Origin: Peptococcaceae bacterium BRH_c8a
GTDB lineage: Bacteria; Bacillota; Desulfotomaculia; Desulfotomaculales; Desulfallaceae
Length of the DNA stretch: 64,000 bases
Assembly: GCA_000961575.1 (NCBI GenBank)
Contig: LADP01000019.1
Coordinates: forward strand, 1 to 64,000
Direction: 5' to 3'
A program made the translations under genes and the position numbers. Shown here piece after piece: positions 20,359 through 21,629 of this stretch. The notes below the pieces were generated by a model. The model made no database searches. It was given only the letters and a program-made list of their open reading frames with translations, and was not told the origin of the DNA. Positions within the stretch are counted from its first letter, which is position 1; every line of letters begins with the position of its first letter.

Positions 20359-20432
20359 GAGAAGAGGTCGGTGCCGGTCTGGGCCTAGCAAGGTTTATAA
20401 AAACACGTGATCAAGGTTTCTTTACATTACCA

Positions 20433-20461
20433 TTGACAAAATAAACAAGTTATGGTTTAGT
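20433..20461 (+). promoter_or_regulatory. Probable promoter of RNA element A and the DUF2294 gene
   Basis: TTGACA at 20433-20438, a 17-base spacer and TTTAGT at 20456-20461. The start would fall about 10-15 bases before the structured element A. Confidence 0.5.
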
Positions 20462-20478
20462 AAGATAAATAAATACTA

Positions 20479-20570
20479 ATTGGTTGATTCAAAAAGGGCA
20501 TAATCGTCAGTTTTCGAGTAAACCAACTCTTCAATGTTGCTTCGAGGGGTAGGTTTATTTATTTTTTAAT
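20479..20570 (+). ncRNA. Switch-like leader RNA, copy A, upstream of DUF2294
   Basis: About 90 bases nearly matching copy B at 21102-21186. TTGGTT (20480-20485) can pair with AACCAA (20521-20526), enclosing a core with AAAAGGGCAT and GTCAGTTT. The same AACCAACTCTTCA can pair instead with the downstream TTCGAGGGGTAGGTT to make a terminator followed by a T-rich tail. Two mutually exclusive helices are the hallmark of a transcriptional riboswitch or attenuator. I cannot match it to a family I know. It ends about 155 bases before the DUF2294 start. Confidence 0.6.
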
Positions 20571-20726
20571 ATGCAATTTTAATGTTTCAAATACCATAAA
20601 CTAACCAGCTTTGGCAGGCGATTACTTGACTCAGAAATGTAGCATACTAAACTTGCTAACTTTTATTTAACTGTATTGCCTTTTGCCTTTTTCAAAGTTT
20701 TAAATATAAAATTTAGGAGAATAGAT

Positions 20727-21110
20727 TTGACAAAAAAACCGGTTAAGTTGATGCATAACGTAACAAAGGGGCAATTGGAAGATCAAATCTCTAAAAAGTT
20801 CATGCAATTCGAGCGTGAATTTCTGGGTCGGGGACCGGTTAACGTAAAGACTGATATAATACGGGACATGATACTAATCAGGCTTGAAGGGGTCCTAACC
20901 AGGGCAGAAATTGAACTTGCCAAAGATTTGGACGGCATAATAATGGTCAAGTCCATGCGTTCCAAGCTTTTAGAAAACGGCAGAGATTATTTAAAACAAA
21001 TTGTATTCGATGTTACCGGGTGCGATATCGTTAGCATCCACACGGATATAAGCACTAAAATCGGTGACCGGGTAATTCTAATTACTGTGGATAAGCTTTT
21101 GTTTGGTTGA
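20727..21110 (+). CDS. DUF2294-family protein
   Basis: 127 residues from a TTG start at 20727, chosen because TAGGAGA precedes it; the ATG at 20676 has no ribosome binding site. The sequence fits DUF2294: ISKKFMQFEREFLGRGPVNVKTDIIRDMILIRLEGVLTRAE, then GRDYLKQIVFDVTGCDIVSIHTDISTKIGDRVILITVD. Cytoplasmic, no membrane segments. Function unknown. Its last codons form the start of RNA element B. Lying between two copies of the same RNA element, it probably shares regulation with the carbonic-anhydrase-like gene that follows. Confidence 0.85.
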   Translation: MTKKPVKLMHNVTKGQLEDQISKKFMQFEREFLGRGPVNVKTDIIRDMILIRLEGVLTRAEIELAKDLDGIIMVKSMRSKLLENGRDYLKQIVFDVTGCDIVSIHTDISTKIGDRVILITVDKLLFG

Positions 21111-21186
21111 TTCTTAAAAGGGCATGTTAATGTCAGTTTGGAATAAACCAACTCTTCATTATTTTTGAAGGGTTGGTTTTTTTATT
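21102..21186 (+). ncRNA. Switch-like leader RNA, copy B, upstream of the carbonic-anhydrase-like gene
   Basis: TTTGGTT (21102-21108) can pair with AACCAA (21146-21151) around a core holding AAAAGGGCAT and ATGTCAGTTT; GGCAT and ATGTC can form an inner stem. AACCAACTCTTCA (21146-21158) pairs almost perfectly with TGAAGGGTTGGTT (21166-21178), followed by TTTTTTATTA. The terminator ends 27 bases before the next start codon. Copy A shares the core, the spacing and the two competing helices. Confidence 0.65.
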
Positions 21187-21212
21187 ACCAAAAAATAAAA
21201 CGAGGTGGGAAA

Positions 21213-21629
21213 ATGGTAAATTGTAATAACTTAGTCATCATGTGTATGGATTACCGATTTCAATCTACTACGCATACATGGTTAAGGCATCGGGGGGTTG
21301 AAGGCAAGTATGATGTTATATCACTTGCCGGTTCCTCTTTAAGTATGCTAAACGACACAGAGACCAGAACCATCGTAGTCAACCAAATTGACCTTGCTCG
21401 CAAGAAACATAGCGTTAAAAGAATTATAATCTTTCATCATGAAGATTGTGCTGCCCTGAAAGATTGCCCAAAGGACACAAGAGAACAGTTGAAAATACAT
21501 CATAAAAAAATGTCACTGGCAAGGAATGTGATATTAAACTATTTTCCTGAATTAATTGTTGAAGAGTATTTTATCAGTCTTAAGGGAGTTTTCTACCCTG
21601 CGGGATTTAAAGACGTGGCAACGGTGTAA
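21213..21629 (+). CDS. Carbonic-anhydrase-like protein
   Basis: 138 residues from the ATG at 21213, which has CGAGGTGGG upstream; the earlier in-frame ATG at 21165 lies inside the terminator. It carries the beta-carbonic anhydrase metal motifs C11-x-D13-x-R15 (MCMDYRF) and H76-x-x-C79 (IIIFHHEDC) on a Rossmann-like strand. It is shorter than true enzymes (about 180-220) and lacks part of the usual C-terminus, so activity is uncertain. Preceded by RNA element B. Confidence 0.8.
   Translation: MVNCNNLVIMCMDYRFQSTTHTWLRHRGVEGKYDVISLAGSSLSMLNDTETRTIVVNQIDLARKKHSVKRIIIFHHEDCAALKDCPKDTREQLKIHHKKMSLARNVILNYFPELIVEEYFISLKGVFYPAGFKDVATV

Follow-up and report, generated by a model that had tools for sequence, protein, structure and literature searches.

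In the hutP-hutH, glcT-ptsG, and licT-bglS systems, the gene of a regulator is followed by a hairpin with a terminator and then by the target gene; in the case of bglG and pyrR, sites flank the regulator gene. HutP is induced by histidine together with Mg2+, the binding of PyrR favours termination, and ANTAR RNAs consist of two hairpins with conserved hexaloops. HutP, the regulator of the hut operon in Bacillus subtilis, is an inducer-dependent antiterminator (PMC12456014). The closest described counterpart by family name and bicarbonate context is MpsC (PF10057) of the mpsABC locus in Staphylococcus aureus, for which no regulatory role has been reported. In this bacterium, a weak terminator precedes mpsC (PMC6689103) and separates it from mpsB (PMC6689103; PMC8552792), the deletion of mpsC causes no growth defect, MpsAB works without MpsC, and the mRNA of mpsA drops in 5% CO2 (PMC6689103).

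The locus described here is located in a 64,000-nucleotide stretch of the genome of Peptococcaceae bacterium BRH_c8a (the window), where mpsC (DUF2294, PF10057; positions 20727..21110, 127 amino acids, TTG start) lies between two copies of an RNA element that are, like all features of the locus, encoded on the forward strand. Copies A (20479-20570) and B (21102-21188) are homologous. As proposed in the original prediction, they share a core (AAAAGGGCAT..GTCAGTTT) and each combine a TTGGTT/AACCAA helix (P1) with a competing, T-tailed terminator; within the 4.17-Mb genome, the core is confined to these two sites. In copy A, the antiterminator hairpin and the start of the terminator arm (20479..20533) comprise P1 (TTGGTT, 20480-20485; AACCAA, 20521-20526) and an inner stem (GGC, 20497-20499; GTC, 20506-20508). 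Its terminator (20517..20570; arms 20517-20532 and 20544-20559, followed by a T-rich tail), which excludes P1, is imperfect: the 3' arm reads GAGGGGTAGGTT, and the sequence downstream of the arms is TATTTTTT. A promoter had also been suggested for copy A (20433..20461); a TTGACA is indeed present at 20433-20438, but the -10 hexamer (TTTAGT, 20456-20461) is poor and a consensus promoter scan reported no site at the TTGACA, so that any promoter read from the sequence at this position must be weak.

In the terminator of copy B (21145..21188), which again excludes P1, a stem (21145-21179) is followed by a T run; it is the only terminator-like site detected by a scan of positions 20360-21260 (0.5 expected). 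Its antiterminator hairpin (21102..21158) consists of P1 (21103-21108/21146-21151), the 5' strand of which overlaps the last codons and the stop codon of mpsC (TTT GGT TGA), and an inner stem (21121-21125/21130-21134). The putative target of copy B is a beta-type carbonic-anhydrase-like gene (21213..21629, 138 amino acids), whose product matches a family of putative carbonic anhydrases in Pfam (Pro_CA_2, PF20393; E 2.6e-22) and retains, as read in its translation, the beta-carbonic-anhydrase signatures CxDxR (CMDYR) and HxxC (HHEDC). Folded on their own, the P1 hairpins are more stable than shuffled sequences (copy A, z -3.4; copy B, z -2.9), as is the entire copy B (z -5.0). The hairpins of copies A and B reach -12.3 and -15.3 kcal/mol, compared with -15.8 and -19.8 kcal/mol for the respective terminator duplexes before loop cost, so that a factor stabilising the hairpin could shift the equilibrium.

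The element had not been assigned to any known class, and searches of the Rfam library returned no match at gathering score for the window; in 16 homologous loci, a single tRNA was the only match at threshold, and the best sub-threshold matches look like chance. The similarities to the described systems concern layout. With HutP, the locus would have in common a small regulator encoded first, an RNA site with a terminator before the target, and antitermination; however, the sequence of the hut RNA is unlike that of the element, and the protein encoded next to the element matches only PF10057 in Pfam and no HutP family. The RNA antiterminators (RATs) of BglG, LicT, and GlcT are likewise irregular hairpins with two internal loops that overlap a terminator, and they either flank the regulator gene (bgl operon) or sit between regulator and target (glcT-ptsG, licT-bglS), but they are shorter (about 30 versus about 48 nucleotides) and differ in sequence; moreover, the adjacent protein matches only MpsC and lacks the domains of the BglG family (CAT_RBD/PRD), and the targets belong to other families. 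PyrR (RF00515) likewise has attenuators on either side of its own gene and further ones inside the operon, but it controls other genes, and its model scores only 19.8 bits here against a gathering score of 54. ANTAR RNAs share the principle of a protein-stabilised hairpin that excludes a terminator, whereas the element consists of only a single hairpin, the tip of which varies. Attenuation is a known kind of control, but this RNA class seems to be new, as do its regulon and the proposed partner; the open-licence papers that were searched contained no report of such an element, of a riboswitch for bicarbonate or CO2, or of a role of MpsC in RNA biology.

Orthologues of copy B are located directly after mpsC in three additional genomes from the same order (G005, G008, and G042), among them that of an uncultured Peptococcaceae bacterium (G005, the contig of locus L066). 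The carbonic-anhydrase-like gene follows the element in G005 and G042, the contig of G008 stops after the element, and a relative of this gene in a further genome (G043) is preceded only by a plain terminator. A covariance model built from five close copies (R1) gave weak matches in distant Bacillota at one particular spot, just 3' of mpsC, and models R2 and R3 were built stepwise from the R1 matches; copy A, itself a member of the models, scored 65.1 bits with R1, 52.6 with R2, and 46.6 with R3. The copies collected with R2 and R3 (43 overall, 37 of them in alignment A8) are diverged and distributed across many families of Bacillota. Weaker R2 matches away from mpsC or a gene related to inorganic carbon (Ci) were left out (L245-L249), and two R1 matches (G444:C1:498639 and one in G334; E 0.02-0.09) were judged to be chance, given that they lie away from mpsC and that R2 prefers an mpsC-linked site in G444. 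A scan of the genome contigs for the exact core yielded 119 stretches, of which only that in L066 is real; the others are chance occurrences without flanking stems and mostly intragenic. Plasmids, phages, and viral contigs that were searched contained no element.

The covariance-model search, which had been suggested together with the prediction, produced more copies with compensatory changes in P1, mostly 3' of mpsC. In A8, 93.6% of the cells are paired (74.2% after shuffling), 134 pair cells are double changes, i.e., compensatory (shuffled mean, 42), and 16 of the 18 pairs contain such changes; since A8 was fitted to the model, these pair counts lean towards the structure, but the margins are wide even so. 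The covariation score was 0.515 versus 0.220 for shuffled alignments, all slid versions fared far worse, and another alignment (A5) had the same outcome. Variants of P1 include UUGGU/ACCAA, UUGGC/GCCAA, and UUGGA/UCCAA, and those of the inner stem GGCAU/AUGUC, GGCCAA/UUGGCC, and GGUAU/AUACC. By contrast, several purines outside the variable stems are nearly invariant among the 37 sequences (G8 and A97, each 36/37; A18 and G83, each 33), and the non-canonical positions next to P1 (AGA/UAR) and beneath the inner stem (A(G/A)/AG) rank with the best-conserved ones.

It had been conceded at the outset that homologues might fail to covary, or that the two copies might merely be recently duplicated terminators. 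Each copy does have a terminator at its end, and the two are alike; however, the presence of diverged homologues across Bacillota, the compensatory changes in their stems, and the nearly invariant unpaired bases that precede the terminator contradict an origin as ordinary or recently duplicated terminators devoid of regulatory function and make this explanation hardly credible. Instead, copies A and B are members of a conserved family of transcriptional on/off switches in anaerobic Firmicutes that is apparently new to the literature.

The element is a single irregular hairpin of about 48 nucleotides. From the base upwards, P1 is followed by an internal loop rich in purines (AGA/UAR), another stem, another purine-rich loop (AR/AG), and a tip that varies in length and sequence. 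In 41 of 43 copies, pairing between the 3' strand of P1 and the downstream DNA exceeds the 5% limit of shuffled DNA (mean -20.0 kcal/mol versus -8.4 kcal/mol for shuffled downstream DNA), and the pairing downstream arm is generally followed by a T run; the remaining two copies have no terminator that uses the 3' strand of P1. The terminator arms change along with P1 between lineages, so that three strands covary. Because P1 and the terminator have this strand in common, they exclude each other, and the folded element should represent the ON state: formation of P1 would consume the 5' arm of the terminator and allow transcription to continue, whereas the intrinsic terminator would form in its absence (OFF). 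The original reading of the layout as a transcriptional attenuator is therefore well supported by the sequences of the homologues, in which diverged copies have compensatory changes in both helices, a conserved overlapping terminator, and mutually exclusive structures.

Some copies depart from this anatomy. In G285 (L176, 1870-2088), two tandem elements follow one mpsC; a terminator that draws on P1 is present in the second but not in the first. In G008 (L151; G008:C69:34239-34288), a copy-A-like element that has lost the 5' strand of P1 and has a TATAAT just upstream precedes a gene for a Na/Ca exchanger, near a carbonic-anhydrase gene on the other strand.

The association of the element with mpsC was assessed by an unbiased R2 search across 398 genomes from the phylum, in which mpsC was not used. 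Among the 24 matches below a cut-off of E<1e-3, 21 are directly 3' of mpsC and one is copy A, located 5' of the gene; another is situated in a 63% complete genome (G364) with masked sequence upstream. The last one (G186:C65) is directed away from what is left of a frameshifted mpsC, on its 3' side, and intact mpsC is present elsewhere in that genome; at this locus (L237, 1400-1900), the element, which precedes an oxidoreductase operon, has outlived the local mpsC. Some further copies precede mpsC itself (L162, L165) or operons that include it (L253, minus strand). Beside the elements, no gene other than mpsC recurs to this extent. Conversely, no element was detected in about half of the mpsC loci that were fetched, where MpsC may have another role, and the adjacency of gene and element could reflect co-inheritance alone. 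Subtypes of MpsC and of the element (A9-U96 versus G9-C96) were compared by eye, and no link is claimed, given that neighbouring genes have a common ancestry.

The genes downstream of the elements, named by Pfam and NCBIfam or, where indicated, only by reading their translation, include many for proteins of bicarbonate and CO2 metabolism. They comprise archaeal-type phosphoenolpyruvate (PEP) carboxylase (L155, L184, L185, and, by translation, L199), PurE and PurK (L155, L164, L239, L179), the Na+-dependent bicarbonate transporter SbtA (L190, L174, L166), the biotin carboxylase AccC behind mpsC (L165), PEP carboxykinase (L206), proteins with CO_dh and POR domains of 2-oxoacid:ferredoxin oxidoreductase (L169, L237), the carbonic-anhydrase-like gene of the window, and a NuoE-like subunit (L252, L266; translation only). 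A P-II/SbtB-like gene is part of an operon with several elements (L244/L255). Up to three elements occur in the same operon, with three in L255 and two in L259; three lie near each other in L253, and a single gene cluster of G469 contains three. Another contig of the same genome as the window (C31:1-12000; L263) carries the order mpsC, element, PEP carboxylase, PurE, PurK, SbtA, a second and diverged mpsC, an SbtB-like gene, and 2-oxoacid:ferredoxin oxidoreductase, with several of the names assigned by reading. Other targets have no clear role in Ci metabolism (DUF4914, DASS/CitMHS permeases, Na/Ca exchanger, an OFA-type MFS transporter, and a GNAT protein). Nevertheless, an inorganic-carbon regulon with bicarbonate/CO2 as the common denominator is well supported by the gene content downstream of the elements, which gives substance to a link to CO2 or bicarbonate that had originally been offered as speculation.

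Such a coherent Ci regulon would also be expected of a true riboswitch, in which the hairpin binds a small ligand, either bicarbonate/CO2 or a metabolite that tracks it (e.g., PEP or a purine intermediate), and MpsC is merely another gene of the regulon. The covarying structure, the near-invariant purines in two internal loops, the overlapping terminator, and the copy that persists beside a dead mpsC all agree with this possibility, although the genome with the decayed gene has another, intact mpsC. However, riboswitches are normally located 5' of all genes of their regulon, whereas the element is mostly 3' of mpsC and leaves the gene beyond its control, as expected for a regulator rather than a riboswitch target. 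Single short hairpins without a pseudoknot or junction, such as this element, are rare among riboswitches. Moreover, an ON state of the ligand-bound form would make sense for carboxylases when bicarbonate is high, but not for SbtA or for carbonic anhydrase, which should be upregulated at low Ci. Direct sensing by the RNA, with MpsC as a mere member of the regulon, is the main rival explanation, although less likely than control by MpsC.

Of the two possibilities originally raised, riboswitch or protein-controlled attenuator, the gene layout favours the latter, with MpsC as the likely protein. The order of regulator gene, hairpin with terminator, and target, together with the data on mpsC of S. 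aureus, is the basis for proposing MpsC as a Ci-responsive, RNA-binding antiterminator. The most plausible interpretation is a new antiterminator RNA for genes of Ci uptake and use, whose hairpin is probably stabilised by MpsC. As a small, soluble protein that would act like HutP, GlcT/LicT, or BglG, MpsC would report the supply of CO2 or bicarbonate, probably switching its targets on when supply is low; it would control its own mRNA via copy A and the carbonic-anhydrase-like gene via copy B. Binding of the hairpin by MpsC is inferred, as are the signal and the supply level at which the targets are switched on.

The anatomy of the RNA would also be compatible with a binder other than MpsC, such as a PII/SbtB-like or an unlinked protein, and some of the operons do carry SbtB-like PII genes. 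These are absent from most loci, including the surroundings of the element in the window, and mpsC recurs beside the elements like no other gene, which renders a different binder quite improbable. The MpsC of the window matches PF10057 (115.5 bits, E 1.6e-33; gathering score, 23) and no other Pfam family; speaking rather against RNA binding, the median pI of MpsC (7.8) is not strikingly basic. An AlphaFold2 model has a confident alpha-beta fold (mean pLDDT 93), but structure searches retrieved nothing beyond widespread alpha/beta arrangements (FtsK domain, TRAPP/Bet3, phage tail terminators; best Z 7.0), with no convincing solved relative, and searches by sequence yielded no relative with a solved structure. 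These matches, all with a Z of 7 or less, prove nothing, and the absence of HutP and other known antiterminators among them is uninformative. The predicted fold neither supports nor excludes RNA binding.

Ci sensing in non-photosynthetic bacteria is largely open, even though CO2 and bicarbonate feed central carboxylations, and a sensor would be new whichever form it takes, RNA-binding protein or riboswitch. On balance, the element probably represents the first class of RNA to report on CO2/bicarbonate status, be it by direct binding or via MpsC/DUF2294 as a new family of Ci-responsive, RNA-binding antiterminators, and to coordinate genes of uptake, hydration, and carboxylation across anaerobic Bacillota.

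Two further observations concern proteins encoded near the elements. In L188 (1839-2264), a 141-amino-acid protein without a Pfam match is encoded between the element and the DUF4914 gene and is conserved in a genus with many genomes of few contigs. SbtB-like PII genes are located beside SbtA in non-photosynthetic Bacillota (L255, 9241-9573; L263, 5170-5487) and, occurring outside cyanobacteria, are of interest as sensors of Ci or energy.
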